NCBI RefSeq assembly: GCF_025215495.1 | Contig: NZ_CP104302.1 | Span: 2,852,001 to 2,916,000 of the forward strand | Origin: Mycolicibacterium brumae | Lineage (GTDB): Bacteria > Actinomycetota > Actinomycetes > Mycobacteriales > Mycobacteriaceae | Reading direction: 5' to 3' | DNA: 64,000 nt | Part shown: positions 44,328 through 64,000 of the stretch, in pieces | How positions within the stretch are numbered: position 1 is the stretch's first letter | How the letters are laid out: each line of letters opens with the position of its first letter | The notes under the pieces: generated by a model | The model's input: only the letters and a program-made list of their open reading frames with translations | What the model was told of the DNA's origin: nothing | The model's database searches: none | Translations under genes and position numbers: made by a program

Positions 44328-44978
44328 ATGGCACGCAAGATGGCTGACCCCGAGTTCCGGACGCAGCAGGAACAAAACAAGACGGACCCGCACATGAAGC
44401 GGATCAACGAATTCGTGGCCAGCCTCCAGGACAAAGACGCGGGCAAATGGCTGCCTGAAGTCGCCCCGATGCACGGCGGAGTCGACGCCCGCGTCCTGAG
44501 CGTGCTCCGCGACCCGGGGCCTGCAACCAAGAAGGGCAAAGGACCGGGTTTTCTGTGCGTCGAGAACGACGACCCGACTGCCGAACGACAGGCCAACCTC
44601 TTCACCAAGTACGGCATCGACCCCCGCGACGTACTCCCGTGGAACGCCTATCCCTGGTACATCCACGAAAGTGCCAAAGCTCCGAACGCTGCTCAGTTGG
44701 AGGATGGTGCCGACGTTCTCTGCAGGCTCATCGGCCTGCTTCCCGACCTGCGCGTCGTTCTCCTGCAGGGCCGGCACGCGGAGAATGTGTGGAAGCGTGT
44801 TCTCAAACGCCGACCGAACATCGAAACCGAGCTCAGTCTGACGGTGGTCGGCTGTATTCACCCCAGCCCCCAGGCTCTGTGGGCCAAGCCACCCGTTCCC
44901 GAGCAACGCTTAGCGAAACAGCAGAAAGCCTACGAAGCGACCGCCGCCGCACTCAAGGACAAGGCTTCGCCGAAGTAA
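44328..44978 (+). CDS. Uracil-DNA-glycosylase-fold protein, 216 aa
   Basis: Motifs of the UDG superfamily are visible: VLSVLRDPGPATKKGKGPGF (motif 1 region), DVLPWNAYPWYI, VVLLQGRHA and CIHPSPQAL (motif 2 HPSP). Length and the HPSP motif suit a glycosylase acting on uracil or a modified base, a useful function against phage with altered DNA. The ATG at 44328 was preferred to 44274 because conserved residues begin after it and CCAGGA lies 8 nt upstream. Confidence 0.75.
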   Translation: MARKMADPEFRTQQEQNKTDPHMKRINEFVASLQDKDAGKWLPEVAPMHGGVDARVLSVLRDPGPATKKGKGPGFLCVENDDPTAERQANLFTKYGIDPRDVLPWNAYPWYIHESAKAPNAAQLEDGADVLCRLIGLLPDLRVVLLQGRHAENVWKRVLKRRPNIETELSLTVVGCIHPSPQALWAKPPVPEQRLAKQQKAYEATAAALKDKASPK

Positions 44979-46848: not shown

Positions 46849-46999
46849 ACCGACCGATCGTACGGACGTCCCTGCGCTACGAGGCGGCCTGAACGCGGCG
46901 GTCACCGCTCGATTCTTGGCGCAACACGGCGATTCGAGCAGTGCCGAGAACACCCATCGTTGACACTTGATCGACCGGAGCATAAGGAGGAGCCTCACG

Positions 47000-49096
47000 A
47001 TGCTCGACAGAGCGAGACGCGACAGCGTTCGGGCGGCACTCAACTCATGGGACAGAGCCGCGGTCAAAGCGACCGTCGACGAAGCCGACGTGCTCCAACA
47101 AGAGTTCGTCGAACGCTTTCCCATTTCTGAATGGCGCACGATGCCGCTGTCGGAATACGCGCTCGGGCAGTCAAACCAAGACACGGTGTCTTGGTGGGTC
47201 GAGTACAAGACGAAGCCGGCAGGGAGCATGAAGGGAGGGTCGGCGTACAAGCATCTGATCTTCCGCTCCGCGGACGGAAGGTGGCGTTTCCCCACGGAGT
47301 ACGAGGATGTCGACCAGGCCTGGGCTGCCGTCCGAACCGGATTCGTCGAGATGCTCGACGCAGCGGACCACGGTCGTATCGAGGACGCCGACGATATCAA
47401 GGTGCTGACCAGTGCGCCCGCGTTGAGAGCCAAGCTGCTGTACCTGTACTTCCCCGACCTCATTCCGCCAGTGGCCTCCAAGACTCATATCGACCATTTT
47501 CTGCGCGCGCTCACCAAGGATCCAGAGCCGACCGTCGTCCGCGCGAACCGACAGTTGCTCGCCGCCCTCCGCGATATCCCTGAACTCCAGGGCTTGACTA
47601 CGCAAGGACTCGGCCAGTTCGTTTACCACTGGAACAATCCGACGACGTCCCACCGCGTGGTGAAAATCGCCCCAGGAGAGCTGGGGCGGTACTGGCGGGA
47701 CTGTCTTTCTGGCGGCTATATCTGCGTCGGTTGGGATGAGGTCGGAGATCTGTCTCACTACGGAAGCAAGGAAGAATTCCGGGAGAGTTTCCGCAGCTTC
47801 TACCCCTACAACGGGGTCGAACAGCAGGTTAGCCGAAAGGCCAACGAGCTGTGGACGCTCATGGAACTTCAGCCAGGCGACCAGGTCATCGCCAACAGAG
47901 GAACCAAGGACATCCTCGGGGTCGGAACTGTGAACGAAGTTGGATACAAGTGGCGGCCGGACCGCGCAGAGTACCGTCACACCCTCGGGATCGATTGGGA
48001 CACCTCGAAAGCCGGGGAGATCCCTCCAGTCAAGGCGTGGGCGACCACCACCATCTCCAAGGTTGCCCCCGCGCTGGCCCGCCAGATTCTCGGCACCCCG
48101 GCGGAACCCAGATCCATCGCCGACGATCCGCAATGCCTCGAGATCGAAGCTGCACTGAAACGCCGAGGCCAAACCGTGCTGTACGGCCCACCCGGAACCG
48201 GAAAAACGTATGTTGCGCGCCGCGCAGCCGTCTGGCTTGCCGCCGGCGGGCAGGCCAACTCACAAGCGAATGCTCTATTGAGCGACGAGGCAGCGCTTCG
48301 CGCTCGCGAACAACAGCTGATGGAGCCCAAGGATGGCAGGCAGTGCGCGCAAGTCACCCGAGTGACCTTCCATCCTTCCTACGCGTACGAAGATTTCATC
48401 GAAGGGTTCCGGCCACAACAGTCCACCGATGGGACGCTGCAGTTGAAGCTCACCGACGGGATCTTCAAGAAGGTTTGCCGGACAGCGGACGCCGACCCCG
48501 CCAACACCTACATCGTCGTGATTGATGAACTCAATCGCGGCAACGTCCCCAAGATACTCGGCGAACTGATCACCCTGATCGAAAAGGACAAACGGGGCAT
48601 GACCGTTCAGCTTTCACAAAGTGGGGACAAGTTCTCGGTGCCGCCCAATGTGTTCCTGATCTGCACCATGAACACCGCGGACCGAAGCATTCACCTGCTG
48701 GACACCGCGTTACGCCGACGATTTCAGTTCATCGAGGTGCTTCCCGACAGCAATCTCCTGGAGGGAAGGACCGCGGGAGCGCTTGCCTTGGATACCTTCC
48801 TCGATGGACTGAACGACGAGATTTCTCGAAAGTTCGGTCGAGACAAACAGATCGGGCATTCCCTCTTCTACCAGGATGACGAGGTGATCGACAGTCCCGA
48901 AGAGTTCGCCGCAGTGTTCCGATACGAGTTGCTCCCTCTGCTCCAGGAGTATCTCTACGACGACTACGCCGCGCTCGCCGATCTGCTCGGCGAAGACGTT
49001 ATCGACTCATCCTCTCTGCGAATCTCGGATGCTGCCGAAGACCCTGCCGAGCTATGCCGGCGGTTGGCTGGCAAGTTCGGCAGCGCATCTGCTTAG
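47000..49096 (+). CDS. mcrB: McrB-type AAA+ GTPase subunit of a modification-dependent restriction system
   Basis: The 698-residue protein starts at ATG 47000 with AAGGAGG 9 nt upstream. The AAA+ domain has Walker A GPPGTGKT (about 395), VIDELNRGNVPKILGELITLIE (about 508), the McrB GTP-recognition-like NTADRS (about 557) and RRRFQFIEVLPD. N-terminal to it, ELQPGDQVIANRGTKDILGVGTV (about 290-320) resembles an EVE/PUA-like modified-base reader. It should form hexamers that drive the McrC nuclease. mcrC follows 2 bp later. Confidence 0.92.
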   Translation: MLDRARRDSVRAALNSWDRAAVKATVDEADVLQQEFVERFPISEWRTMPLSEYALGQSNQDTVSWWVEYKTKPAGSMKGGSAYKHLIFRSADGRWRFPTEYEDVDQAWAAVRTGFVEMLDAADHGRIEDADDIKVLTSAPALRAKLLYLYFPDLIPPVASKTHIDHFLRALTKDPEPTVVRANRQLLAALRDIPELQGLTTQGLGQFVYHWNNPTTSHRVVKIAPGELGRYWRDCLSGGYICVGWDEVGDLSHYGSKEEFRESFRSFYPYNGVEQQVSRKANELWTLMELQPGDQVIANRGTKDILGVGTVNEVGYKWRPDRAEYRHTLGIDWDTSKAGEIPPVKAWATTTISKVAPALARQILGTPAEPRSIADDPQCLEIEAALKRRGQTVLYGPPGTGKTYVARRAAVWLAAGGQANSQANALLSDEAALRAREQQLMEPKDGRQCAQVTRVTFHPSYAYEDFIEGFRPQQSTDGTLQLKLTDGIFKKVCRTADADPANTYIVVIDELNRGNVPKILGELITLIEKDKRGMTVQLSQSGDKFSVPPNVFLICTMNTADRSIHLLDTALRRRFQFIEVLPDSNLLEGRTAGALALDTFLDGLNDEISRKFGRDKQIGHSLFYQDDEVIDSPEEFAAVFRYELLPLLQEYLYDDYAALADLLGEDVIDSSSLRISDAAEDPAELCRRLAGKFGSASA

Positions 49097-49098
49097 CC

Positions 49099-50421
49099 AT
49101 GCGTCAGACCGTCGAACTCGCCGAATATGAATCGCGCATCGTCCGGTTCGGCAAACCGACGAGCGATGATCAGAGCTTGGCCGCGCGCTTATCCCGTGGC
49201 GGTGACCTCGGAGCCCGTCTCGACGTGCGGTGGCTGGCAGGCGGTCGCGCAGAGGTCAAAGCGAATTCGTGGGTCGGTGTCGCACAGTTCTCCAATGTTG
49301 ATGTTCGCGTAGTTCCCAAGATCGTCGGCGGCCCGTTACGCGTCGTCGAGATGATCGAGTACTCCGCAGGGATCTCGCTCCTTGAACGGATTCCGGAAGC
49401 CACGCTGAATGCTTCTGGTAGAGATCTTTTCGAACTTATCGTGCGGCTTTTCGTTGAGGAGACGAATCGACTAGCGCGGGATGGCCTCAACCGAGACTAC
49501 CGACAGACCGAAGAGACTCTGCCTGTCATGCGGGGCCGCCTGCGCACTCGAGAACAGTTCATGCGGCAGTACGGAACCGTCCATCGCCTCGAATGTTGCT
49601 ACGACGAGTACGACGGTGACATCCCCGACAATCAGATTCTCGCGCAGGCGCTCGCCGCGGCCTCGGCACACGCCCTAAGCGACGGATTGCGTGCGGACTT
49701 GGCGACGTTGGTGCGCCTGTTCGCCTCCGTCTGCGATCCGCCTAAGCATCGAATCGATTGGTACACCGGCAGAATCCGCTACAACCGCCGCAACGAGCGC
49801 TACCGGCGTGCGCACGAACTCGCGACCCTGGTGATACAGGGTCTCACCCTGGACAATCTGCTCGACACTTCCGCGCAGAAGGTGGATGCCTTCTTGATCG
49901 ACATGAATGTTATTTTTGAGCGGTTCATCACCCGGTTGGTGACCGATGCGCTGAAACGAACCGAGTTCTCGGTCTCTCCACAAGAGTCCTTTCGCGCAGT
50001 CGTGATCAACGAACGAACCGGCAAAACCTACGGAAGAATCCGGCCCGATCTAGTCATCAACGACCATGCCGGCAACCGCTACCCCGTTGACGTCAAGTAC
50101 AAGCTATACAGCGAGCAAAAGATCAGCGCGGACGATATCTATCAAACTTTCCTCTACGCATACGCTCTCGGCGGAGATCGGGACCAGGCGACCGCGGGAC
50201 TGATCTTCCCTGCAACATCGTCCGAGCCGGGGCCCAGAATTCGCATCCAGCGGGAGAACAATTTTGCGGTGGCCGCCCGCATCCTGAGCACCGGGGTGGA
50301 CGTGCCGTCAGTCCTGTCGGCGCTCCGTCGACACGACCCCGATCTGACCTACGCCGCGATTCGCGGATTCCTTCGCGAAATCCTCAGGCAACCCATTTCC
50401 CCAAGGTGGACCCAAGTCTGA
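49099..50421 (+). CDS. mcrC: McrC nuclease subunit
   Basis: The 440-residue partner of McrB has the N-terminal bundle and central segment (NLPVMRGRLRTREQF-like LPVMRGRLRTREQF) and a C-terminal PD-(D/E)xK nuclease domain: GRIRPDLVINDHAGNRYPVDVKYK, with Asp near 316 and Asp-x-Lys near 331-333. Together McrBC cuts DNA carrying modified cytosines between paired sites. ATG 49099 is two bases after the mcrB stop. An upstream start (49054) overlaps mcrB and is less likely. Confidence 0.92.
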   Translation: MRQTVELAEYESRIVRFGKPTSDDQSLAARLSRGGDLGARLDVRWLAGGRAEVKANSWVGVAQFSNVDVRVVPKIVGGPLRVVEMIEYSAGISLLERIPEATLNASGRDLFELIVRLFVEETNRLARDGLNRDYRQTEETLPVMRGRLRTREQFMRQYGTVHRLECCYDEYDGDIPDNQILAQALAAASAHALSDGLRADLATLVRLFASVCDPPKHRIDWYTGRIRYNRRNERYRRAHELATLVIQGLTLDNLLDTSAQKVDAFLIDMNVIFERFITRLVTDALKRTEFSVSPQESFRAVVINERTGKTYGRIRPDLVINDHAGNRYPVDVKYKLYSEQKISADDIYQTFLYAYALGGDRDQATAGLIFPATSSEPGPRIRIQRENNFAVAARILSTGVDVPSVLSALRRHDPDLTYAAIRGFLREILRQPISPRWTQV

Positions 50422-50431: not shown

Positions 50432-52600
50432 TCAATGGCCGCACTTGACTCCAGTCAGCAGCGGTGACGGTTTTCCGGTCCACAGGATGGCCAGGCGCTC
50501 GCGCGCCCGCGAGCCGGCGACGTAGAGCACCCGCAGGACCTTCTGCTCTTCCTGGTCGCGCTCGAGGCCGGCCAGTCGACTCAGGTATGCGGGCGGGAAC
50601 GAGGTAGACCCGAGCCGGGCCAGCGCAACAGCTCTGTACTCCAGCCCCTTCGCGCGGTGCATCGTCATCACACGAACGACGTCGCCCAACCGTGTCTCAT
50701 CGGTATCCCCGTCCACAATCGATGCCGCGACTCCGCCGGCGTTAAGCGCACTGGCTACCTCGCGGACATCATTCCTCTCGTACACGAACACGCCGACGTC
50801 CGAAGCGGAAACGCCCTCGACTTGCCAGTCCCTGATCTTCGCGATCAAGCCGTTGTTCTCCGCAGACACGGACTCGAAGCCCAAGAGCTCTGGAGCAGGG
50901 CCGCTGAAAACCGATCGCGCACCAACCAGACTGTCTGCGCCGGCGTCCAGATCGTCGATGTCAGCCGGCGAGATCGAGAGGACCCACTCGAGGATCTCTC
51001 GGCTCGTCCGGTAGTTCACCGTAAGGCGACGTGATCGACCACGGGTTTCGATCCCGAACCGCGAAAGCGGTGCAGGCTTACCGTAGATACGTTGGTGAGC
51101 GTCCCCCACGATGAACATGTCGTCGGTATCTCGCGGGACCAGTGCCCGCAGCAGATTCCAATGGACGGGATGCAGATCTTGAGCTTCATCGATGACTGCG
51201 TGCCGGTACCGGAACTTCCGCGCCAAACTCTGGTCTGCTGTCAACGCAGCCGCCGCATTCGCGGCTATCTCCGTGAAGGTCGTCAATTTCCGCGACTGCA
51301 TCAATTTCTGAAACCTCTCGATCGCGGCCCATACATCGACCCGCTCGGAACGGCTCAACCGCACCAACCGCCCAGCTCGGGGCGCACGAAGGTACCCAGA
51401 TTCGTCAATTATCGCGTTCCCCAAGACCACGTAGGACCACTCATCTTCGAGGAACCGATGGTCCCATTCTCCGATGCATCCGCGGGCAGCGATCCTCCAG
51501 AGTTCGTTCGTTTGGACACTCGAAACAACTTTCATCGAATTCACCAAAGTTCGACCACCGGGGGTTCCGGCCAGCACCGCGCGAGCGAGGGCATCGATGT
51601 TGGTGGTGTGTACGCGGTCAGTGACTCCGGGGCCCGCGAGCTGAACAAGCTGAACTTCAATCGCGTTCGCCAGGTTCCTTGTGAACGTGGTGAACAACAC
51701 GCGGACCTTCGCGTCGGCTCCGGCCGCGCTCAGGCGATTAGCGAGGAATCGCGCTCGGTGCACTGCAGTGACGGTCTTCCCAGTCCCGGCCCCACCGGTC
51801 ACCCGAAACGGGCCATTCCAGCCCTCGTGCCGCGCAAGCTTGTGCTGAAGGGGGTGCAACCAGATTCGCCATGCCGCAAGGTCGCCGGACAGCATCGCCA
51901 GTAATTCATCAGGATTATCGGTGTCGATGGGAGCGAAGCTGGCGCGGGATACCTCGCGATCGGCAGCAGCACGAAAATCATCGGAATCGAATGCGCCGGG
52001 AGACTGGGCCAGGAGCTCGCTCCAGACATCCTGCGGATCCTTGCCGCTGACGAGCTCGAGGATCGCGAACCCCTGGTTGACGGGGAGCGCATCAACCAGA
52101 TGGTACAGAGCGTGTTCGTCTGCAATCTTCTTCAGCTCGACAGCTACGTCCGGAGACACACCGAATCGTTCCAAGTCTGCCTGACTTACGGTGGCGGGGA
52201 CGATCGGGGCTGCGGCTTCCTCCGGGCGAGCATTCTCGATTGCGGTAGAAACGGCAATGGGGTCGAAGATTTCAGCTGCGCCTACCTTCTTGTTGACTCC
52301 GACCGAAACGGTCTCAGCGAACTTGTAGGCCTCGTCATGTGGCTTGACCGCAACAAGGTACAACCGTGAAATATCCTCCCTCGCACCGGCATTCACCAGA
52401 ACAGCACGGTAATTGTCGGTCACGCGTGCCGTTCGAACCCTCTTGTCCGCAGCGCCTTTCGGCTGCTTGAAATCCAGTCCAGGAGCCTCGGGGTCCTGCT
52501 GGATCTTCTCGAGGAACTGCATCATGCGTTTCAGAACACCGGCGTCTAGCCCCGAAGAAGACTTATGGAACAGTTCGTGAAGGACGACTTCAACCTTCAT
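50432..52600 (-). CDS. RelE/ParE-like domain fused to UvrD-type helicase, 722 aa
   Basis: Residues 1-95 follow the RelE/ParE toxin pattern: FHKSSSGLDAGVLKRMMQFLEKIQQDPEAPGL, RVRTARVTDNYRAVLV and the LVAVKPHDEAYKFAE ending. Residues about 220-720 are a superfamily-1 helicase with Walker A GGAGTGKTVTA (about 266), VIDEAQDLHPVHW (about 467), VNYRTSREI, TMHRAKGLEY and VAGSRARERL. ATG 52600 is preceded by AAGGAG. It lies 41 bp after drmB on the same strand, so it probably belongs to the DrmAB array. It is convergent with mcrC (10 bp). Confidence 0.85.
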   Translation of the reverse strand: MKVEVVLHELFHKSSSGLDAGVLKRMMQFLEKIQQDPEAPGLDFKQPKGAADKRVRTARVTDNYRAVLVNAGAREDISRLYLVAVKPHDEAYKFAETVSVGVNKKVGAAEIFDPIAVSTAIENARPEEAAAPIVPATVSQADLERFGVSPDVAVELKKIADEHALYHLVDALPVNQGFAILELVSGKDPQDVWSELLAQSPGAFDSDDFRAAADREVSRASFAPIDTDNPDELLAMLSGDLAAWRIWLHPLQHKLARHEGWNGPFRVTGGAGTGKTVTAVHRARFLANRLSAAGADAKVRVLFTTFTRNLANAIEVQLVQLAGPGVTDRVHTTNIDALARAVLAGTPGGRTLVNSMKVVSSVQTNELWRIAARGCIGEWDHRFLEDEWSYVVLGNAIIDESGYLRAPRAGRLVRLSRSERVDVWAAIERFQKLMQSRKLTTFTEIAANAAAALTADQSLARKFRYRHAVIDEAQDLHPVHWNLLRALVPRDTDDMFIVGDAHQRIYGKPAPLSRFGIETRGRSRRLTVNYRTSREILEWVLSISPADIDDLDAGADSLVGARSVFSGPAPELLGFESVSAENNGLIAKIRDWQVEGVSASDVGVFVYERNDVREVASALNAGGVAASIVDGDTDETRLGDVVRVMTMHRAKGLEYRAVALARLGSTSFPPAYLSRLAGLERDQEEQKVLRVLYVAGSRARERLAILWTGKPSPLLTGVKCGH

Positions 52601-52641
52601 CCCCACTCCTTGTCGGTGGAACGCCTTGCACCGCATCATCC

Positions 52642-54378
52642 TTACGACTGCGCACGCTCGATAAACTCACTGAACAGACCCATCCCCTCGCCGCCTTCGT
52701 CGTGTGTCCCGAACAGGAGGGCACGGTCCAGGAAAGAGTTGTTCATCTCGCAGGAGGTCTCGGGTGCCAACACGCAGGCATGGCATGCCGCGAGATTGAG
52801 TCCACCAGATCCCGAACTCACCGACTCGATACAAACTGGGTCCGACGAGCACCACGACATCCTCTGCAGGCCCTCGCTGAGAGCCGCACCAAGACGCTCA
52901 GGTTCCGCCATCGAGGCCACTCCGCCCAAGCTGCCCGCCGAATCCGAACTTGCGGTGTAGATAAGCAGTCCAGCAATCCTCTCGTCGACGAAAAGCCGCT
53001 CACGCAAAGCGGCAGCAGGGTAGCCGGCGTCGAGCGACAACTGGTCGATGATGATGTGCGACAACGTGTGGATGGCAACCTTGACGATGTCGACTTCGGA
53101 TTTGTCGCGGTTGTAATCGGCCGAAACACGATCAGAAGTCTTCTGGAGCAGGCGTCGACGTTCGGTTGCGAATTCACCGAAAGCCCAACTGTCAAGTGCA
53201 GGTCGGTCGAAAGCCATGAAGACACCTTCGCCGATTACCTCGATGGCGGGCAGCCAGAACTCCCGATCACGAGACAACGCGCACAGTTTCTGAACCGGAC
53301 CGGATGGGTCCGGCGCACCGTCGAGACGCGTGAACCCTTGTAGAGCACGGACTTCACGCAGCCTGGTCACCTTCCGAACCGCCGAAATCAGCGATTCAAA
53401 CCCGGCTGGGACCTCGCGATGGAGGCAAACGAAATCTGATCCCAGGTCGCCTTCTTCGCGACCTTCGACAAGCGCCTTGAACTCATCAGCACGGAGAATC
53501 TCCTCGGTCACCGGATCGTCTCCGTCAAACTCGCCGTGGCGTCTGTCGATTTCACCCTTGATCTGCTCGACAGTGAAGCGGCCCTTCGATTTTGCGGCCA
53601 GCCCATTCAGCACCGGCGGGATTACGGCTGCGGGGTCCTTGACCACATCCCATTCGCGGGAGACGAACTTGGCGAGGGCCTCCGAGTACGGAGGGATTGA
53701 GATCGAAGAGCGCACCGCCGGGAACCAGACGTTGGACGCACCGCGCTGAACAACTCTAGGAATCTGATCGCAATCCTCGTGGGTATCAAGCCCCAACCAC
53801 GGCCGAAGGCCCCGGCAGCGTCCGTATGCCGCCAAGGATCCGGCAGTGATCGCACCTTCCAGATTGCGGTCATCGACGCCACAACCGCATGTGAGGGTGA
53901 GATCCGCGAGTGATGACGTTCGACCGAGCGCATTGAGCTTCATCACGTGGTCTTCCGAACGGATCTTTTCCTTCTGGTCGTTGTGCAGCCATTCGAAAAC
54001 CGGAAATTCGCTCACATGCCCATTGCGGCACGCGGCAATCAGGCGAAAGGGGTTCAGGTCAACCCCGTCCTCCTTGCACCGGGCTTTGATCGAGTCCTTG
54101 GACAGCTTGGACAACGGCCCAATCCGTCGGCACTTCGGACAGACCTGGGTGTATGGATACCGGATGACGGGAACATCCCGCCTACCGCCTGCCGGGGGTG
54201 CCTTGAGTTCCGACACACCGAGAGCCCTGGCCAGACGCGGCTCCTCGATCGTTTCGGCCTTCTCAACCTTCCACTCGTGCAATCCCGCAATCATGAAGCT
54301 GGTTGACTCCGAGGGGAACAGACCACCGACACCGTACGTGCTCAGCAGCTGACTACGTCGAACCTTCGCCTCAGTCAT
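52642..54378 (-). CDS. drmB: DISARM protein DrmB (DUF1998)
   Basis: At 578 residues it starts MTEAKVRRSQLLSTYGVGGLFPS, typical of DrmB, with an N-terminal zinc cluster (VCPKCRRIGPLSKLSKD, ACRNGHVSEFP). The DUF1998 signature near the C-terminus reads WCSSDPVC... GLNLAACHACVLAPETSCEMNN with four or five Cys and FLDRALL. DrmB and DrmA form the core complex of DISARM, which recognises and unwinds invading DNA. It overlaps drmA by 4 bp. No phospholipase-D gene (drmC) follows. Confidence 0.9.
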   Translation of the reverse strand: MTEAKVRRSQLLSTYGVGGLFPSESTSFMIAGLHEWKVEKAETIEEPRLARALGVSELKAPPAGGRRDVPVIRYPYTQVCPKCRRIGPLSKLSKDSIKARCKEDGVDLNPFRLIAACRNGHVSEFPVFEWLHNDQKEKIRSEDHVMKLNALGRTSSLADLTLTCGCGVDDRNLEGAITAGSLAAYGRCRGLRPWLGLDTHEDCDQIPRVVQRGASNVWFPAVRSSISIPPYSEALAKFVSREWDVVKDPAAVIPPVLNGLAAKSKGRFTVEQIKGEIDRRHGEFDGDDPVTEEILRADEFKALVEGREEGDLGSDFVCLHREVPAGFESLISAVRKVTRLREVRALQGFTRLDGAPDPSGPVQKLCALSRDREFWLPAIEVIGEGVFMAFDRPALDSWAFGEFATERRRLLQKTSDRVSADYNRDKSEVDIVKVAIHTLSHIIIDQLSLDAGYPAAALRERLFVDERIAGLLIYTASSDSAGSLGGVASMAEPERLGAALSEGLQRMSWCSSDPVCIESVSSGSGGLNLAACHACVLAPETSCEMNNSFLDRALLFGTHDEGGEGMGLFSEFIERAQS

Positions 54379-57300
54379 CGCGGGACCTTCCTGGCTGGAA
54401 TCTGGAATAGCGCGCTCTCGGCGTCAACATCCCGCATGCTCTGGGGTGTGGGCCAAGGTGTTTCGGAAGTGTTGTACTCGATGCCCTCGACGTTGGCCAG
54501 CGCTGTGTCGGCGGGGATGAGCAATGAACTGTCCCAGTCCTTGCTGTCCCGGTAGAGCATCTCCGGGTTCACGTCGGCCGCTTCGGTCCACACCCGAATC
54601 AAGTCGTCAATCTGCCTGCGGGCGTCTTCGGCCTCGTCATAGCCCGTGACGGCGCGCGCACGTTCCGCGAGAAGTTCCCCGATCTGGGCCAACTCGTCGT
54701 AGCGCTCAGACGCCCGTCCGGCCTGACGGTCGTGAGCAAGGTCGTCGACCAGGACTCGGGTAAGAGCAACCAGTACGCCGTGCAGCGCACGGTCGCGCGC
54801 ACGAGCCGCAAAAGGTGTCGCACTCGTAGCTTCCACGGCTCGGTACAGTGCCTGGTGAAAGGGAACAAAGTTTTCGTAGTGCGAACGATCCCTGGAGCGA
54901 GCGGAATTGAAGATCGTGACCACAAGTCCGGGATGCTTTCGCCCGACCCGGCTGGTCGCCTGGATGTACTCGGCGCTGGATTGCGGCTGCCCCATCACCG
55001 CCATGAGTCCAAGCCTGTCGATGTCGACACCGACCGAAATCATGTTCGTCGCCAGGACCACGTCCATGGCTCTACCGGACGCGACATCGTCCTCGAGCCC
55101 TTTCAACCTCGCCGGGATCTCCGCCGAGGGAACTCGACTGGTGAGTTCTTCCGGCGGTCGAATCTCCCGCGGCGAGACTTCGTTTCGACCCGCCACAACC
55201 CGGAGCCTGTCCCGAACGTCATCCTGGACCTGCAGACTGGCGCTGCCAAGTACTCGAAGGCTGTTGAAGTATCCCAACAGCGTCCAGTAGGGATCACGGA
55301 TTGCATCACCTCCGGGCAGGTCGAGGGCGGACTGCAGAAGTGCAGCGTAAACACGGACCAGGAGCGTGGCATGGCTCGTTCCCGGGGCCATGACGCCGAC
55401 ATACTCTCTGGTCCCCAGTTGATCCCTTGACGCCGGCTCAGCGAAGAACGATTCGTCGGGATTGACGCCTGGCGGAGGAAACTGCTCGGCTCGTCGACGA
55501 AACACCGCTTTGATCTGATGATCCGCGCGACGGATCGTCGCCGTCGATGCAATGATCTTCGGCCGTCCACGCACCACGCCTTCCGGCGTCACTTCGGAAC
55601 AAGCGGCGTCGATCGCCGTTTCATACAGTCCGACCATCGAGCCCAGCGGACCAGAGATGAGGTGCAGTTCGTCCTGGATGATCAATGACGGTCTCGAGCC
55701 AACTCCGTCACGCGCGAACAGCTTCCGTACGTCCTCGCGCCAGCACATCTGGGCGAACTTGTCGACAGTGCCGAGAACGAGCTCCGGGCGCACACGGTAG
55801 ACATCCTCATCGACGACGTAGGCCGGCAGACCACCGCCGAAGTCGCACGCACCGTTGCGACAGGCGATGTTGAGTCGCTCTTCGGGGCGCTTCAACACCT
55901 CGTAGTTCGATACATCCAGTTTCTGCCCACACCAGGGGCATTGGGTGAGTTGGACCGGATTCTTCTCATTGAGTTCCTGATTGCCCCTGAGTGCGTCGAG
56001 TGACTTCCGCGCATCCACGAGCGTATTCGGTGTTGCCCCGGCGCCAACCCACAGACCGATGGAGAACGGTCTGTGTCCCAGATCTCGTTCCGAGATTCGC
56101 ATCCGCTCCAACGAACACATCAACATCGTCGCACGTTCAAATTGCTGAATCGTCAACAGCCGCAACGTATACCGCATGATAACGGCCACGCCGGACGCAC
56201 CATCATCCCTGATTCTACGAAGCAGGATCGTGAAAGCCACCAAGCCGAGATACGCCTCGGTTTTGCCGCCGCCCGTGGGGAACCACAAGAGGTCCGCGAT
56301 ATCCCGGTCCTCATGGTTTGCATCAGCCAGGCCCGGCAGGTTCAACAGAATATAGGCGATCTGGAACGGCCGCCAAGCTTGATCGACTCCGGTCGGCACG
56401 GCACCCACGGAACCCTCGCGCACCCAATCCTGCCGGGCTCGCTGCGTCTGCATCGCCTTATTGGCGAGCCGAAAGGCACGGCCGACGTCCTTGTCGCTGA
56501 CCACGAGGTCGATTCCACTTTGAATGCGGTCTGCCGCCTCCCGAGCCTTCCGCAGATGCTCGCCCGCAACACCGGAGAGACCTGGCTCCACACCCGCCAC
56601 GCCCCTGGTCACATCATGACTGAGCTGTTCAATCCAGGCCCGGTACTCGACGACCAGACCTCCGAGATTCTCTGCCAGCTGCTGATCCGATGCTGTGCTC
56701 AGGAAGGACATCCGTAGATCGACATCGCTTTTGAGTGCGCCCGGCTTCGCTCTGGCCACCTCCTGTCGGGGCACGAAGGTGGACGCCACCCGTCCAACGG
56801 TCTCGCCTGGTGACTCGCCGCCCCATTCGGCGGCACAGCCGTGGCCCACTCCGTATACGCGCGCGTTGCGATACAACAGCGCCGCCGTCCGCAGATCGGC
56901 ATCATCGCTCAGAACCCCATAGGACGAGCGATCTGCAATCGCCTGCTCAGGCGATGTGATCTCCAAGCCCACCTGGAACCAGGCGTATCCGTCACGGAAC
57001 TCGCCCTTCGGCACCTCCAACAGGTTTCGCAGAGCCACCGAAACAGCTACCCGACCGTTCTTCGGAGTGCGCGCCAGGACGTACAGCTCCAGTCCTGGCG
57101 CGATCTCCATTCTCCTCGCCCCAGGCGCAGAAACATTCCACTCGACAGGTTCGAGGCCCAATGGCTGCCTCCGCCATGCGTCCGGCTTGGCCCCACGTCG
57201 CATGCGAGACGGTTCGCCTCCCGCCTCCACTGCATCACGTCCAGACGGCAGGTACTTCGCAGCAGCAACAGCAATCTGCACGTTCGTCGCCAGCGACAAG

Positions 57301-57578
57301 TCGACGGAGAAGGTTAGGCCCATCGATGTCGGATATCTCATGAGCGCCTGAGAGATCGGACTATCACCATCGCTTTCTTCATCGGCCTCCCCGCTGTCGG
57401 GTTCCGCAGCCTCCTGCAGTTCGCCGTCCACCGGCCACAAGACGCCTACGACGTAGCGGTCCAACGGAAGGTCTGTGATGACCTCCTCAACCCCACTCGC
57501 CGGCCCAACCAGATCCCCGATCAATTGATCGATGAGTCCATCCCTGAACTCATACTTCTGCGCAAGATCATTCGTCAT
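54375..57578 (-). CDS. drmA: DISARM-type helicase DrmA
   Basis: This 1067-residue protein has a helicase core with Walker A LWFPTGGGKTEAYLG (about 430) and motif II IIQDELHLISGPLGS (about 630). A zinc pair precedes the core's second part (QCPWCGQKLDV, about 540). The second RecA-like domain carries VGVDIDRLGLM and QATSRVGRKHPG (about 880). The DEXX box reads DELH and the family-specific GRVGRK... region matches DrmA. It has a long N-terminal domain (about 1-330) beginning DGLIDQLIGDLVGP. It lies 13 bp downstream of a UvrD gene. Confidence 0.9.
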   Translation of the reverse strand: MTNDLAQKYEFRDGLIDQLIGDLVGPASGVEEVITDLPLDRYVVGVLWPVDGELQEAAEPDSGEADEESDGDSPISQALMRYPTSMGLTFSVDLSLATNVQIAVAAAKYLPSGRDAVEAGGEPSRMRRGAKPDAWRRQPLGLEPVEWNVSAPGARRMEIAPGLELYVLARTPKNGRVAVSVALRNLLEVPKGEFRDGYAWFQVGLEITSPEQAIADRSSYGVLSDDADLRTAALLYRNARVYGVGHGCAAEWGGESPGETVGRVASTFVPRQEVARAKPGALKSDVDLRMSFLSTASDQQLAENLGGLVVEYRAWIEQLSHDVTRGVAGVEPGLSGVAGEHLRKAREAADRIQSGIDLVVSDKDVGRAFRLANKAMQTQRARQDWVREGSVGAVPTGVDQAWRPFQIAYILLNLPGLADANHEDRDIADLLWFPTGGGKTEAYLGLVAFTILLRRIRDDGASGVAVIMRYTLRLLTIQQFERATMLMCSLERMRISERDLGHRPFSIGLWVGAGATPNTLVDARKSLDALRGNQELNEKNPVQLTQCPWCGQKLDVSNYEVLKRPEERLNIACRNGACDFGGGLPAYVVDEDVYRVRPELVLGTVDKFAQMCWREDVRKLFARDGVGSRPSLIIQDELHLISGPLGSMVGLYETAIDAACSEVTPEGVVRGRPKIIASTATIRRADHQIKAVFRRRAEQFPPPGVNPDESFFAEPASRDQLGTREYVGVMAPGTSHATLLVRVYAALLQSALDLPGGDAIRDPYWTLLGYFNSLRVLGSASLQVQDDVRDRLRVVAGRNEVSPREIRPPEELTSRVPSAEIPARLKGLEDDVASGRAMDVVLATNMISVGVDIDRLGLMAVMGQPQSSAEYIQATSRVGRKHPGLVVTIFNSARSRDRSHYENFVPFHQALYRAVEATSATPFAARARDRALHGVLVALTRVLVDDLAHDRQAGRASERYDELAQIGELLAERARAVTGYDEAEDARRQIDDLIRVWTEAADVNPEMLYRDSKDWDSSLLIPADTALANVEGIEYNTSETPWPTPQSMRDVDAESALFQIPARKVPR

Positions 57579-57591
57579 TTATGCCTGCCCC

Positions 57592-59427
57592 TCAGGTAGT
57601 GGAAAGATCGGGCTCTGCCAGCCCGGTTACTCGTGGAACAAGCCAAAAGCCGCTTCGTCCGGCGCCAACCTTCTCGCATTCTGCCGGGTCACCCGCGACT
57701 GTTTCGATCGACGCAAGCGACAGTCCCTCGATGAGCTTCGGCCGATTGCGCAGCCAGTGGAAGTAGTGGTGGAACTCAACGCCAAAGGATTCACTCGTCC
57801 GTCCGATGAACTGGTCGTCGCAGTAGAGCAGGTACGACGGCGTCGTCGACAACGCCGAGGCAGGGTCCAGTCGGGCGATCACCGCTGATCCAACAAAATC
57901 GGCGTTCAAGAGCAACCCCTGCACATCGCGTGCATTGGTCTTCCGCGACGATGCCGGTGCCGTTACGTAGACGTCGTCGTACCGAAACTCGATGGCACTC
58001 GTGTACCTGCGCCCTCTTTTGCCGTACTTCTGTTCGGTGAAACGACCGGACCGCCGCTTATCCGGTCCGACTGCTGACTTCGATTCCATCGCGCTGCAAA
58101 CGTAGATGGAGTCTCTTGCTCGGCTCAGTGCGACATAGTCCCGACATACCCGGGGCCATATCCCTTCATCGTCGGGCCTCCAACCGGGTTCGATGATGAA
58201 GACCCGGTCGAACTCAAGCCCCTTGGCTCGATGAATCGTCGACACAATCACCGAACTCTCGTCCGGTTCGGTGAGCGGAAGCGCCAGGTTTCGCGCCTCT
58301 AGGACACGACGCAGGCGCATCAGATCGAGCGAATCATACGAGCGTGAACCTCCTTCAGCCGCCTTCAGATCCATCCATCGTTGGCTCACCCCTTCGGATT
58401 CCAGTACCCGGGCAAGCGCTCCTTCAACGTCTGATCGCCAGACCTTGGTGCCGGACAGGCCTCCGAGTGCACCTGCAATCCACCGTGCCGCACCGAAATC
58501 CTGAGCTTGGCGCCGTACTGCATGCGCGACGGACTGCCGATTCAGCGCCCGCGAGACTCGGAGAACATCCGCGTTCGTGGTGCAGAGCACAGCGGTGGTC
58601 TTCTCATCCGAAGAACCGACCCGCCCGCACCATTGGTCAAACGCGCCCAGGTAGGGAGCATCGTCCATCAGTTCATCGACGATATCTTCAGCTTTGCGCG
58701 CGTCATGTGCGTCATACGCTCTTCGCAACGCGCCTGCCTTCGCGACCACGTGCTTCGGATACTTACCTCGCGCACGGTAATTCGCACCAAGCCCGACTTC
58801 CTCACACTCGAAACGGCTGCGGAGGACCCCGAACACGTCCTTCGAAGAAGTCTTGCTGGCAGACTCCTCAATCTGAAAGTCATACACCCCCTGCAGGGGG
58901 TCGCCGAGAGCGGTGATTCCGGCCGCTCTATCCAGCCTCTTCATGAGTGCCAGAACGAAGTCCGCGCGGTCTCCCACCAGGTCTTGAATCTCGTCAATGA
59001 TTATGTGCTGCAACAGTTCTACGGCGGGCGGGACTTCCTCCGACTCCTCCAGCAATCGAGTCGCGCGGCGAACGCGGGCTTCGTAGCTCCCGACAGCTTC
59101 GACGTCGGCGTCTAGGAGCAACAATCCCGCGAAGGAATCGAATGTCCGAACATTAGGCGTCGGGACATCGCGGAGGTCGAGGCGCTTCTTGACCGCCGAC
59201 ACAGCTGCCCGCGAGAAACTCAGCACCAACAGTTCGTTGGTTTCCAGGCTCTCATACCGCGTGAGGTGGTCAATCCTGCTGACGACAACCTCGGTCTTGC
59301 CCTGGCCGGCACCTGCGATGACGAGCAACCTTGCGTCAGGTGCGGCCTCGACGACATCTCGCTGCTCATCGTTGAGTTCGACATCATCGGAGTTCGATTC
59401 ATTCGCCCACCGTTTGAGCCAACGCAT
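57592..59427 (-). CDS. UvrD-like superfamily-1 helicase in the DrmAB array, 611 aa
   Basis: It begins MRWLKRWANESN and has ELNDEQRDVVEA, Walker A IAGAGQGKTEVV (about 37-48), IIDEIQDLVGDR where DEAQD is usual (about 145), GDPLQGVYDFQ, TIHRAKGLEFDRVFI and YVALSRARDSIYV. The C-terminal 100 residues are an added domain. The chosen start overlaps the end of the GHKL-helicase gene by 29 bp, so the genes are coupled. In this position it probably supports DNA translocation or processing by DrmAB. Confidence 0.85.
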   Translation of the reverse strand: MRWLKRWANESNSDDVELNDEQRDVVEAAPDARLLVIAGAGQGKTEVVVSRIDHLTRYESLETNELLVLSFSRAAVSAVKKRLDLRDVPTPNVRTFDSFAGLLLLDADVEAVGSYEARVRRATRLLEESEEVPPAVELLQHIIIDEIQDLVGDRADFVLALMKRLDRAAGITALGDPLQGVYDFQIEESASKTSSKDVFGVLRSRFECEEVGLGANYRARGKYPKHVVAKAGALRRAYDAHDARKAEDIVDELMDDAPYLGAFDQWCGRVGSSDEKTTAVLCTTNADVLRVSRALNRQSVAHAVRRQAQDFGAARWIAGALGGLSGTKVWRSDVEGALARVLESEGVSQRWMDLKAAEGGSRSYDSLDLMRLRRVLEARNLALPLTEPDESSVIVSTIHRAKGLEFDRVFIIEPGWRPDDEGIWPRVCRDYVALSRARDSIYVCSAMESKSAVGPDKRRSGRFTEQKYGKRGRRYTSAIEFRYDDVYVTAPASSRKTNARDVQGLLLNADFVGSAVIARLDPASALSTTPSYLLYCDDQFIGRTSESFGVEFHHYFHWLRNRPKLIEGLSLASIETVAGDPAECEKVGAGRSGFWLVPRVTGLAEPDLSTT

Positions 59428-62400
59428 TTTCGAACTCACCCCCCTCGGAGTCGACGATGTCCTGGATGCTCTGATACACGATGCTGTGCCCGAACTCGAT
59501 AATGTTGTCAAGCATGTTGACAATCAAGACTTCTTCGGTGCCGCCGTTCTTGGGACCTCGAAGCCCCCTACCGACCATTTGCTGGTAGCGCACTTCGCTG
59601 CTTGTCGGCCTGGTGATATAGACGGCGTCGGTCTTGGGCGCGTCGAAACCCTGTGACAGCACGGCATAGTTTGTGAGCACCTTCAGATCGCCCGCTTTGA
59701 ACCGTTCAATGGCCGCCCGGCGGTCCTCCGGGCTGGTGTCCTGATCGATCGAGGCGGCGGACCTGCCGCTCAGCGTCAGGAGTGTCGCGAGGGTTTGTGC
59801 GTTCTCGACCGAAGCAGCGAAGACAACGATCTGCCAATCCGCCGGCTTCTTCAGAATCGACTCGACGATGGTCCGCGTGCGATCCTCATCGCGGCCGAGC
59901 CGAGCCTCGGCACTCTTCGAAAGCCACCCTTTCGATCTGAACTCTTCAAGTTCGTGATCGGCAAGGTCGATCGAGATTCCGTCGATGATCTCGAGGCGGG
60001 CGTGGGCGAGCACGCGGTCTCTCTGGAGTCGCACCTGCGGGTGCTCGTCACCGAACACCCCTTCGTCCAGGCGGTTGTCGTCGAACCTGCGCAGCAGCCG
60101 CTCTGTCTCTTCGCTGTCCCGGCGTCCGCGAAATGGCGTTGCAGTGAGCCCGATCAAGGGCTGGTCCCGTTGCCGTGTCCCACGCTGGAGCCATTCCAGA
60201 ATGCTTGTGTAGGAGGGCGTATAGGCCCCGTGTGCCTCATCGATGATCGCGATAGGAGCCTCAGCCAACCAAGCGAAAGACTCGTTTCCCACTGCCCTCT
60301 GCTTGATTTTCTGCCATGTTGCGACGACAACCTGGACCCCGCCCGATTCTTCCTCCATCTCATAGTTCGACCAGAATCGGCTGAGAATCAATTGGGTGTC
60401 CTGACGTCCGACGGCACGCCACAGATATGACCAGGTGTCGATCGCCTGCTCGCAGAGCTCCTCACCGTCGGCCAGCCACAGGATCGGTCCCGCAAATGGG
60501 CCGTCCTGAGGGCCGTCGAGTTGGCCATCTCTGATGCACTCAATGATCGTCTGCACGGTCACCCGGGTTTTGCCAGCACCAGTTGGCAACGACACGATGC
60601 CTCGGCGCAGGCCATTTCCGGTCAGCAGTCGCTTGAGCCGCAACGACACTTCCTGTTGGTAGTCGTGCAGCGCATCGAGTTGGGTCGGGCCATCGACGAA
60701 CTCCGTCGGCTTGTTTCGCCTGCCGCCTCGTTGGCCGGCCCACTCCTCACCGAAACCAAGACTCTTGACCCATTTCCGCGTGTTGTAAGAACCGGCCCAA
60801 GTGGATGGGACGTCGTCCGGGAGCTTGTCCGAGTCGATCTTGGATGCTCGTTCCAGGGCGCGTACCCCTAGCATCGTGATACAGAGTTGCGCCAACTCCA
60901 TGCCGTGCGGCTCAACGGAGCCCTCATTTTCCAAGTAGGTCAGGGCCGATTTGGGGATCAGCGCTTGGAGTCGGTCTTCGCCGGCCAGCATCAACAGCCG
61001 CTCAGCATCCGTGGATGCTCCCCTGATCTCGCGGATCCGCTTGGAGTTTCGACGGCGCTGCAGGGTATCCATCAGCATCGCCACCTGTTGATCGGAGTCG
61101 TCGCATAGCAGTTGCCCCAAAACCTGTTTCAAGATCGCGGCCTCGCTGCTCCCGGTCACCAAGATGTGCTGGCCCTCGATGCCGGCCAGGCAATCAACCC
61201 TCATCTCTGGTTGCCCCGGTACCGCAGCCACCTTGCTGATCGACAGGCACTTCTGCAACTTCAGGCCATCGAGGTCGTCAACGGTTTCGAGAATGTTCAG
61301 GACGGGAAACACGTCGGTCAGCACTTCAGGGTCGGCACTCGTTTCGTAGGAGTACGCAATCGGGAGTTCCCGACCTTCGAGGCAGTCCCAGAACTCGCTC
61401 AAGGTATGGACGTCCTCGGCAGCTCCCACCACTACGCAGGGGATTCCGAACTCATCGAGAACTCTCGATTCATCAATACCGTGGACGACGGCAACCTGGC
61501 TGGTCTGCACTTCTTCCCATTTGCCACGACAATGAACCCACAAACGTTCAGGAGGCGCATCGGTACGAAGGGTCCAGCACCACCAGGCGTAGGTTTGACC
61601 GACACGTTCGACGTCGTTGCGAGCCACATGTGTCTCGACAAGAGCGCCGAATGCCCTCTCGTCGAGATCGCCGATGTCTTTCTTCAGGTTCAGGACGGTT
61701 TCCATGTCGGTGGTGAGCACGACTTGTGTCACCGAGGGAACCAGGCCGGTCGGGATTCCCGGCACCTCGGGGACAAAGGCTTCCGATACGGGCATCGGCC
61801 CGAGCGTGGTCGGCAGCATCCCCGCCAGGCGTACCCACCAGATTTCAGGAGCGACGTACTGCCCGGATTTCCGCACACTAGGGTGACTTACCCCAACCCT
61901 GGGCACCTCGATCTCGTTGATGACCGCCGTGCTGAGCGCAACCCTGTTCGTGACGCTCAGATTCGGCAAACACTCGAGCGGGCCGAGAAGGTTGTCGATC
62001 GTCTGAATCTGAATGTTCTCGCGGGCGGACTGACTGAGCGTCAATGCGTCACCGATGTCGTCATGGACGGTTCGTCGGTACTTCGAGAGCCACTTTTCGG
62101 GGACAGACCTACGGGATCGGGTCGGACGAGACCGAAGGCCCAGAAGGTACAAGATCGGGTGATCGGCTGCGTGATAGTTGCCATCGACCAGATAGTCGCC
62201 ATCTTCCCGAATCTGCCTCAAACAATCGCCCGGGACGTACAAACTCCCGGGAAGCACCCAGCGTCCATGGCCGTTACGAACACAGACGATCTGCGCGGCG
62301 CGTCCCTCGAGCACTCCATCGAACGCTTCCTGAACTTGCTGGAGGCCGGATCCGCGCATCGCCATCCACAGCTCGTCCCAGTCGACCGTTCCCGTCTGCC

Positions 62401-64000
62401 GAAGCTGCGTGAGCAGTTGGAGCATCTCTCCGCCATCTTCGAACGGAGTTACCCCAAGATCTTTCAACGCCGCTTCGGTCGAAGGACGACCGGCCACTCC
62501 GGCATCGACGAACGAAGTTCCGGACTGTGTCGGGTTCGTCCGGAGGAAGCATCGGCCACGGACTGGCTGCGCCAGCGTGCCGTTTTCCAGCAGGACAATT
62601 CGCGAGTCTCGGATGTCCTGCTCCGCATTCCTCGCGTTGGGATCGCGGTTGACGCCCAGTTGACCGGACAACTGCGCGGCCAATTCGATCGCGGCCGCCG
62701 ATTGGTCGGCACCCGGTTGAGCCACTACCGATTGCAGCCAGTGCTGCACCCTTCCCTGTGTTGCCCTCGGCCGATCACTGTCCTGCATCAGGCGATCGAC
62801 CTTGGAGCGCCGCTCATTACTCGTGGTGCAGTCCGGGTGCACCCACTCTGAACGATTGCCGGTTACCTCCAACCAACGACCCGCGAGTTCGGTGGTCAGC
62901 TCCGGAATACGACGAACGACACTCGGTGACCTGAGTTGCCCGTCCAGGTCCGGCAGGCACCGCTTCTCCCTGAGCGTCGCGAATACCGGTTCATTCAGGA
63001 CTCTGTCAGCCCAGCTGCGCGCTTCCTTGCCGCGCGCGGGGAGCACGTCGATGTACCTTCCGAATGCACCGTTGCCGACCAGCTCCTTGCGGGCGCCGGC
63101 AACCAACTGCGGTACAACGTCCACGAGCAGTTCCTCGTTGAAGGCACATTCGATGACGTTGATGCGGTCGTCCGACAGTTTCCAGGGTGCGTTCAGTCGA
63201 CCGCTCAGGGTGGTTTCGGATTTGACCGGGAAGTAGGCAGACAGCTGGCCGATCTCGACACGACCGGTAAGGGGCAGAGCCCAGCTGACAGTGACGGAGT
63301 CACGCCGCGCCGCGTGCCCCGCAGACTCCAGAGCACGTTCAGAAGGTTGATGCTCCTTGGAGACAACCAGGTACTGCCGGTCACCACCTTCTGTCGTCAA
63401 TGTGACGCGGTTGCCTCGTTTGGAAGCTTTGAAGTGGCGTTCATTGCCACCCAGCTCGTCAACGAGGTCGAGAACCCGCACGTGCGGCGCGAACAGATTG
63501 AAGGATTCGTCGAATTCCTTGATCTCTTCCGAGAGCTGTTCTGCTGCGCCTTCCTTCAGCGGGATCTTGATGACTGTGATCGCCCATCTGCCGAGTTCCG
63601 CCAGCACGGGATCACCCTGAAACTCCACGGCAGGACTCAGCGGCCACGCAAGTCGTAGCGCCGGAACATCGTCCGGATCGAAGTGACGGCCCAGTTCTTC
63701 GGAAAGGGATGTGGCCGTTTGGTTCCGATGGAACTCGAACGAAACACTGCGACTGAAGATCTGGGGATTGTCCGAGATTCCACTGATCGACTTGAAGCCA
63801 AGTCCGAACCGACCGATCTCCGTGCCTGTCTTATTGGACAGATGGGTATACAAGAGAGCTCGGAGCCCGCTCTCTTCGAACGGCTTGCCTTCATTCGCAA
63901 CGTAGAGGGTATCTGCGGTGAGCGTTACCTGGGCGCGGCCAGGAGCCCTTTGCAGCGCGTCCGCGGCGTTCTGGATCAGCTCCTGGATCTGCTTGCGGCC
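59399..64000 (-). CDS. GHKL-ATPase/superfamily-2 helicase giant protein (5' end outside window)
   Basis: At least 1533 codons are present and the frame stays open to the right edge. The visible N-terminus has a sacsin/HSP90-like GHKL ATP-binding fold: QELIQNAADALQRAPG, then LYVANEG and GRFGLGFKSI. The C-terminal 480 residues are a type III-restriction/DEAD-like helicase: LRRGIVSLPTGAGKTRVTVQT, IAIIDEAHGAYTP, GLTATPFRGRR, LSQGFDAPKTDAVY and QMVGRGLRGPK. The middle (about 400-1000) shows no known domain. It is the most upstream visible gene of the array. Confidence 0.88.
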   Translation of the reverse strand, partial: GRKQIQELIQNAADALQRAPGRAQVTLTADTLYVANEGKPFEESGLRALLYTHLSNKTGTEIGRFGLGFKSISGISDNPQIFSRSVSFEFHRNQTATSLSEELGRHFDPDDVPALRLAWPLSPAVEFQGDPVLAELGRWAITVIKIPLKEGAAEQLSEEIKEFDESFNLFAPHVRVLDLVDELGGNERHFKASKRGNRVTLTTEGGDRQYLVVSKEHQPSERALESAGHAARRDSVTVSWALPLTGRVEIGQLSAYFPVKSETTLSGRLNAPWKLSDDRINVIECAFNEELLVDVVPQLVAGARKELVGNGAFGRYIDVLPARGKEARSWADRVLNEPVFATLREKRCLPDLDGQLRSPSVVRRIPELTTELAGRWLEVTGNRSEWVHPDCTTSNERRSKVDRLMQDSDRPRATQGRVQHWLQSVVAQPGADQSAAAIELAAQLSGQLGVNRDPNARNAEQDIRDSRIVLLENGTLAQPVRGRCFLRTNPTQSGTSFVDAGVAGRPSTEAALKDLGVTPFEDGGEMLQLLTQLRQTGTVDWDELWMAMRGSGLQQVQEAFDGVLEGRAAQIVCVRNGHGRWVLPGSLYVPGDCLRQIREDGDYLVDGNYHAADHPILYLLGLRSRPTRSRRSVPEKWLSKYRRTVHDDIGDALTLSQSARENIQIQTIDNLLGPLECLPNLSVTNRVALSTAVINEIEVPRVGVSHPSVRKSGQYVAPEIWWVRLAGMLPTTLGPMPVSEAFVPEVPGIPTGLVPSVTQVVLTTDMETVLNLKKDIGDLDERAFGALVETHVARNDVERVGQTYAWWCWTLRTDAPPERLWVHCRGKWEEVQTSQVAVVHGIDESRVLDEFGIPCVVVGAAEDVHTLSEFWDCLEGRELPIAYSYETSADPEVLTDVFPVLNILETVDDLDGLKLQKCLSISKVAAVPGQPEMRVDCLAGIEGQHILVTGSSEAAILKQVLGQLLCDDSDQQVAMLMDTLQRRRNSKRIREIRGASTDAERLLMLAGEDRLQALIPKSALTYLENEGSVEPHGMELAQLCITMLGVRALERASKIDSDKLPDDVPSTWAGSYNTRKWVKSLGFGEEWAGQRGGRRNKPTEFVDGPTQLDALHDYQQEVSLRLKRLLTGNGLRRGIVSLPTGAGKTRVTVQTIIECIRDGQLDGPQDGPFAGPILWLADGEELCEQAIDTWSYLWRAVGRQDTQLILSRFWSNYEMEEESGGVQVVVATWQKIKQRAVGNESFAWLAEAPIAIIDEAHGAYTPSYTSILEWLQRGTRQRDQPLIGLTATPFRGRRDSEETERLLRRFDDNRLDEGVFGDEHPQVRLQRDRVLAHARLEIIDGISIDLADHELEEFRSKGWLSKSAEARLGRDEDRTRTIVESILKKPADWQIVVFAASVENAQTLATLLTLSGRSAASIDQDTSPEDRRAAIERFKAGDLKVLTNYAVLSQGFDAPKTDAVYITRPTSSEVRYQQMVGRGLRGPKNGGTEEVLIVNMLDNIIEFGHSIVYQSIQDIVDSEGGEFENALAQTVGE

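Follow-up and report, generated by a model that had tools for sequence, protein, structure and literature searches.

What kind of defence system is encoded by the DrmA-DrmB gene array at the right-hand end of the stretch of Mycolicibacterium brumae DNA analysed here, and how would it tell its own DNA from that of a virus? The stretch, hereafter the window, comprises 64,000 nucleotides (positions 2852001-2916000 of contig NZ_CP104302.1). Because it sits within a single contig of 3.99 Mb both flanks of the array were readable, and numbers past 64000 continue the window's count outside it. A sequence-only reading had described a five-gene multi-helicase array that was related to the defence island system associated with restriction-modification (DISARM), lacked its usual partners and had a self/non-self logic other than methylation. 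DISARM is divided into class 1 and class 2, whose established definitions we follow. We conclude that the array is DISARM-related and belongs to neither class. Its gene content, linkage, predicted folds and conserved motifs suggest, with a probability of about 0.6, a third DISARM architecture that is linked to 5-methylcytosine (5mC) and draws on the same GHKL, UvrD, Vsr and methylase proteins as MutL-type repair and the paraMORC restriction systems. The cluster is probably directed against viruses, a function that we infer.

The array consists of five open genes that all lie on the minus strand and, as had been stated, are closely spaced or overlap slightly; the start codon of the first gene lies 150 bp outside the window. 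The genes on which the argument turns are these:

59399-64150, minus strand: GHKL/S5 ATPase fused to a RadD-like superfamily 2 (SF2) helicase, 1583 residues, here called the giant; its ATG, at 64150, is beyond the window edge.
57592 to ~59427, minus strand: UvrD-family helicase, ~611 residues, with a C-terminal extension of ~145 residues; the open reading frame opens at 59523.
54375-57578, minus strand: DrmA helicase, short form, 1067 residues; 993.1 bits against NF038325.
52642-54378, minus strand: DrmB with a DUF1998/MZB zinc-binding domain, 578 residues; 431.9 bits against NF038324.
50432-52639, minus strand: ArmD-like UvrD helicase, the ARMADA-type fifth gene, 735 residues; UvrD/GajB-like matches and a putative RelE-like N-terminal domain.
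64359-65468, plus strand, outside the window: C5-cytosine methylase; 97.6 bits against PF00145, with a PPCQ motif.
65469-65948, minus strand, outside the window: Vsr-type endonuclease gene, interrupted by an insertion sequence.

The true start of the fifth gene is probably near 52600, because its relatives align only from residue 10-14.

The relationship to DISARM was upheld, as DrmA and DrmB both exceed the NCBI cut-offs of their models (950 and 240, respectively), and DrmB also matched PF09369 (31.3 bits, cut-off 24.2). Both proteins aligned over most of their length with their counterparts in the solved Serratia structure 7s9v, DrmA at 573 bits (E 9.7e-171) and DrmB at 256 bits. Residue 18 of the M. 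brumae DrmA pairs with residue 143 of Serratia DrmA, and roughly the first 125 residues of the latter are missing from this short form. Fold prediction assigned the ATPase part of the giant to GHKL-S5 and the second protein to UvrD, and the SF2 helicase part was recognized by Pfam. These fold searches scarcely covered the giant past model residue 480 or the C-terminal domain of the UvrD protein, a domain of 144 residues for which the Pfam search gave no match at E<=1. The fifth protein had been read as a RelE-like/UvrD fusion; its UvrD part stands, while neither a Pfam family nor a PDB chain matched the putative RelE-like domain at E<=1, and that label, which derives from homology to ArmD, is unproven. 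None of the five proteins matched the methylase, drmC, drmD or drmE defence models above a few tens of bits. The locus itself yielded no DrmC, DrmD or DrmE, in agreement with the earlier observation, and no match to the SNF2 helicase DrmD or the methylase DrmMI of class 1 DISARM.

Conservation was assessed in 79 named loci obtained from the top 80 of 504 or more relatives, a selection that is biased to close relatives; the count profiles were built from these same loci, so that the counts lean towards detection. The co-directional order GHKL/S5-SF2, helicase, DrmA, DrmB was present in 74 of the 76 named loci that could be assessed (72 of 76 for the UvrD-type order, without L138 and L153) and absent from L106 and L150; three other loci end too early. 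One of the 74 comes from a Chloroflexota metagenome-assembled genome. A sample of the class, drawn separately, gave matches in 15 of 296 genomes, two of them partial, and the four-gene order was found in 12 of 13 full-length loci with the window's own excluded, L037 being the exception; two of the 13 duplicate named loci at the DNA level (L032/L110 and L038/L135). A single DrmA is common to L106 and L128. The multi-helicase array that had been proposed is conserved as a unit of four genes and not five, the ARMADA-type fifth gene standing outside the core. Outside the family, genome G458 (L273) of the same phylum carries the core with an adjoining methylase and Vsr, and a NERD-type helicase after DrmB. 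On plasmids the UvrD partner stands beside DrmA in five of five records, two of which are from one strain. UvrD-DrmA-DrmB without an adjacent GHKL protein was found in L071, L072, L073, L169 and L179, the last a plasmid stretch without gene annotation. Phages were considered as the usual vehicle and rejected: among 80 kept loci of the viral_contigs collection only L193 matches most of the giant and the others match only its helicase end, and the two matching records of a phage collection cover the helicase part only.

The DrmA proteins of these systems also group together. In a tree of 67 rows made by a quick method, with Shimodaira-Hasegawa-like approximate likelihood-ratio (SH-aLRT) values as the only support and with NERD and 'other' rows mixing, 32 of 34 sampled GHKL-system DrmAs formed one clade (SH-aLRT 100) separate from class 1 (96), where the class 1 labels of L171 and L174 are based on drmC and the tree only. 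The clade also takes in two UvrD-DrmA-DrmB loci without an adjoining giant. At the position of the Serratia trigger loop, an acidic loop was present in 44 of 47 parsed DrmAs of the GHKL group (the loop was parsed in 47 of 89 DrmAs from these loci and in three of eight of class 1).

The earlier reading had allowed for missing genes to the right of the window, and this proviso proved half justified: drmC was not found, and a C5 methylase is present just outside the window. The methylase gene is divergent from the array, with 208 bp between its start and that of the giant, and its best PADLOC model is MTase_II (297.7 bits vs 65.4 for the top DrmMII model listed). A C5 methylase lies no more than 6 kb from a core in 11 of 13 giant-carrying genomes, where 0.15 would be expected after allowing for the number of C5 genes per genome (P ~1e-20; tallies and 6-kb distances were derived by hand from search rows). 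The named loci agree: 74 of 79 have a C5 methylase (43 of them two and one three), and 50 of 79 have Vsr. By way of control, no C5 methylase was detected in eight class 1 DISARM loci, searched as stretches of 14-23 kb. With a pairing conserved to this extent, the claim that self and non-self are told apart by something other than methylation is not borne out.

No phospholipase D (PLD) nuclease of the DrmC kind (PLDc_2) was found above cut-off near the core in any of the 13 genomes, the nearest approach being one sub-threshold PLDc_2 match (G161:C1:4365873) ~5 kb upstream of the giant, and the Nostoc drmC reference, which has low sensitivity, matched none of 95 loci. Six of the 13 genomes hold a second DrmA (1340-1452 bits), and in all six a PLD gene lies 2.2-2.5 kb away (the loci inspected were L170 and L171); the search would therefore have detected DrmC near the core. 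The only linked nuclease candidate seen was Vsr. Here its gene is interrupted by an insertion sequence of 1.8 kb (~65757-67576) that is bounded by inverted ends of 21 nt and has two near-identical copies elsewhere in the genome, while the methylase and core genes are open; Vsr is thus probably accessory and not essential. Among the other DISARM references searched against the 95 loci, drmE (one Lactiplantibacillus plasmid protein, whose identity as DrmE is suggested by gene order) matched none, drmMI matched only L037, within its ArmB, and drmD matched 10, nine of them with ArmA after DrmB, plus L082.

Where, then, does the fifth gene come from? Sequence comparison identifies it as an ArmD homologue. 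On an Escherichia coli plasmid the genes that precede a homologue encode a DEAD/DEAH helicase, a DNA methyltransferase and a 2113-residue helicase, in the ARMADA type II order of Bell et al. (PMC12458937). ArmA stands immediately after DrmB in nine of the 95 loci. In M. setense (L276), M. peregrinum (L277) and Prescottella (L278), ArmA-ArmB-ArmC-ArmD come immediately after DrmB, and these three loci with L077, L078 and L093 form eight-gene co-directional rows of GHKL-SF2, UvrD, DrmA, DrmB and ArmA-B-C-D. Among 18 genomes, the ArmD proteins of the three are the nearest to the fifth gene (64, 65 and 59% identity). G290 likewise has ARMADA behind a core, its ArmD belonging to another branch, and in the Tsukamurella plasmid record (L071) UvrD-DrmA-DrmB is followed by ARMADA genes, ArmD and a second UvrD copy. 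M. brumae has a separate, complete ARMADA type II system (G000:C1 2988734-3005564), ~73 kb from the array start at 2916150, whose ArmD belongs to a different branch (35% identity to the fifth gene). The array itself has ArmD only, with ArmA, ArmB and ArmC missing. Fifth-gene matches above 250 bits occur in 12 of 79 loci, in three of which the gene lies straight after DrmB on the same strand; L092 has the same trimmed form of core plus ArmD, and L110 and L148 also have ArmD after DrmB. In three relatives an orthologue of the fifth gene ends the eight-gene row, and the most fitting interpretation of the array is the four-gene core with an ArmD that is a remnant of, or was taken from, an ARMADA row. 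Three side observations concern the same genes: a GHKL-SF2 protein lies next to ArmD, without adjacent DrmA-DrmB, in L037 and L150; further GHKL-SF2-like gene pieces lie past ArmD on the other strand (L276:19279-19899 and L274:14452-16296, both minus); and in L071 a RelA/SpoT-domain protein lies between a C5 methylase and the UvrD-DrmA-DrmB-ARMADA genes.

Two published bodies of work suggest how such a system might operate. Serratia DrmAB is described as binding 5' overhangs and as autoinhibited by a trigger loop, with an ATPase activity that unmethylated DNA raises and 5mC DNA lowers (PMC9142583). Iyer et al. put forward a joint action of GHKL proteins, SF2 helicases, cytosine methylases and Vsr in restriction systems and likened it to that of MutL, UvrD and Vsr in DNA repair (PMC2292703). 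In the architecture that we favour, the linked C5 methylase would supply the self mark, as its linkage suggests, and DrmA-DrmB, if it behaves as in Serratia, would be sensor and motor, loading where phage DNA, on entry or during replication, exposes unmethylated single-strand ends. UvrD and the RadD-like SF2 motor might then extend unwinding, the MutL/MORC-like GHKL-S5 ATPase, whose fold is predicted, may act as an ATP-gated clamp, and cutting could fall to the linked Vsr where it is intact and otherwise to a host nuclease. The ArmD-like fifth gene would be an ARMADA-type add-on, as in relatives that carry a complete ARMADA operon attached to the core. A bolder version, which we hold to be doubtful, is a mismatch-repair-style machine in which the GHKL-S5/SF2 protein would be a MutL-like clamp, Vsr would nick, UvrD and DrmAB would strip the unmethylated strand and the C5 methylase would mark self; the eight-gene rows of some mycobacteria and relatives would then mean that 5mC-based and PglX-based systems share a transcript and ArmD, with DISARM and ARMADA as modules of one machine.

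Several observations weigh against a 5mC-linked third architecture. Vsr usually accompanies C5 methylases and may serve repair only. The core is not uniform: the UvrD profile gives the second gene of L138 and L153 no more than 30 and 61 bits, a NERD helicase fits it about as well or better, and the DrmA of these two loci falls outside the GHKL-system clade, in another one, and core genes look split in two frames in L028 (DrmB) and L107 (UvrD). Genome G101 shows no methylase, G118 shows none inside 6 kb, and G290 has two cores, with a methylase close to L028 and not to the first core, L026; no C5 methylase was detected in five of the 79 named loci. Moreover, a C5 methylase is not exclusive to these systems, as NERD-DrmA-DrmB loci have one in seven of seven cases and the class 1 DISARM of Serratia has one as well (PMC9142583). 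The methylase itself varies (50 of 79 loci have one above 450 bits to the profile built here) and can flank the core on the left or the right, often with other genes in between. Because type, side and distance vary, the methylase link is strong but not rigid. Bravo et al. also argue that DISARM can discriminate by DNA structure besides methylation (PMC9142583). The core may accordingly discriminate by structure alone, such as the 5' overhangs recognized by Serratia DrmAB (PMC9142583), with the C5 methylase and Vsr an independent dcm-vsr remnant that shares a defence island; the variable type, side and distance of the methylase and the five of 79 loci in which none was detected speak for this. 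We regard it as unlikely nonetheless, given an adjacency far above chance that was absent at the eight class 1 control loci, and the divergent methylase gene here with only 208 bp between starts.

Alternatively, several autonomous systems may lie abreast, namely a paraMORC-type system (GHKL-SF2, methylase and Vsr), UvrD-DrmA-DrmB, and ARMADA, each acting alone. In L037 the GHKL protein lies directly behind ArmB-ArmC-ArmD, with no adjacent DrmAB and with UvrD-DrmA-DrmB (L169) ~30 kb off on the same contig; the five loci with UvrD-DrmA-DrmB and no adjacent GHKL protein, and the occurrence of ArmD with ARMADA elsewhere, fit the same picture. A fixed order with tight spacing of four genes in 74 of 76 loci is hard to reconcile with it, and we consider it rather unlikely, if a little less so than discrimination by structure alone. 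That the five genes form a system without methylation-based logic, as the sequence-only reading held, agrees with the lack of a methylase inside the array and has been largely refuted by the conserved methylase just outside it and by the variable fifth gene, leaving very little probability. A DNA-repair operon (mismatch or very-short-patch) is just as improbable: GHKL, UvrD, Vsr and C5 methylase do belong to such repair (Iyer 2008, PMC2292703), but the scores of DrmA and DrmB with curated models, the patchy spread across the class and the defence-type neighbours argue otherwise. The 5mC-linked DISARM architecture is thus the reading we prefer.

How does this architecture compare with systems already described? 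It shares with DISARM a DrmA and a separate DrmB, a linked methylase and class 2-type 5mC chemistry; it differs in the GHKL-SF2 fusion, the UvrD protein, a short DrmA in a clade of its own and a methylase that fits MTase_II models better than the DrmMII of class 2. With ARMADA type II (Bell 2025, PMC12458937) it has in common the ArmD homologue and, in three relatives, ArmA-D after DrmB; DrmA and DrmB are split in the array, whereas ARMADA has a fused YprA-DUF1998 helicase, and in a term look-up of the available text of that paper GHKL, Hsp90 and cytosine were absent and UvrD occurred once, for ArmD. The MORC/paraMORC operons (Iyer 2008, PMC2292703) likewise combine a GHKL-S5 ATPase, an SF2 helicase, a cytosine methylase and Vsr, but the array fuses GHKL and helicase, has an interrupted Vsr gene and adds UvrD and DrmA/DrmB, which the available text of that paper does not mention as operon members. 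Alphaproteobacterial plasmid operons of UvrD-DrmA-DrmB-NERD (L072, L073, L179) similarly have UvrD directly upstream and a second helicase directly downstream; in these, a GHKL-SF2 fusion was not detected and the NERD helicase takes the fifth place. NERD protein-DrmA-DrmB loci appear to be another DISARM relative (L158, L161, L164, L165, L166, L168, L176). Two PADLOC models, which we take to denote the systems Tiamat (TmtA) and Gabija (GajB), match the GHKL part and the UvrD parts, respectively. Both were rejected as home family, as the matches are partial only and the array is not a single gene; no GajA-like protein was seen among the PADLOC matches listed, nor such domains in Pfam results for the array and scanned neighbours. 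The McrBC-associated 'DISARM-like' cassette (Bell 2024) was considered because McrBC adjoins the array; its figure legend names YprA, DUF1998, SWI2/SNF2 and PglX, an ARMADA-like content that does not fit the core. Searches of open-licence literature gave no description of a GHKL-SF2/UvrD/DrmA/DrmB architecture. As PADLOC and NCBIfam already label DrmA and DrmB, what is new is the arrangement and not the parts.

The array adjoins other defence-type genes on both sides:

41107-42696, plus strand: SIR2-domain protein resembling the defence effector ThsA.
44274-44978, plus strand: uracil-DNA-glycosylase superfamily protein, a weak match slightly below the Pfam cut-off.
46967-50421, plus strand: McrB-McrC type IV (modified-cytosine) restriction pair, convergent with the array and ending ~10 bp from its end.
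68326-70503 (L005:5326-7503), minus strand, right of the window: GmrSD-type restriction protein with a C-terminal RAMA domain.

The first two belong to a group of further defence-type genes left of McrB-McrC. With McrB-McrC beside a system that has a linked C5 methylase, the site context of the methylase would have to escape McrBC. Homologues of both a 700-residue helix-turn-helix (HTH) protein and a DUF6339 protein occur in 47 of the 95 loci. The two genes sit between methylase and giant in L096, L101, L118 and others, and in L118 both, together with the gene of a 325-residue protein, form one row that is on the opposite strand.

Here we add to DISARM an architecture common enough in Actinomycetota to yield 74 four-gene loci among the top 80 of 504 or more relatives. 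The nuclease that DISARM normally carries was not detected in it; GHKL, UvrD and Vsr proteins occupy that position, so that what cuts DNA after DrmAB loading becomes testable by comparing architectures. The M. brumae locus also illustrates why no meaning should be read into a 'missing' methylase until the sequence past the window edge has been examined. Finally, DISARM-type and ARMADA genes are physically joined in the eight-gene rows, of which the array looks like a trimmed form, and if the mismatch-repair-style reading were true, DISARM and ARMADA would be two modules of one machine.
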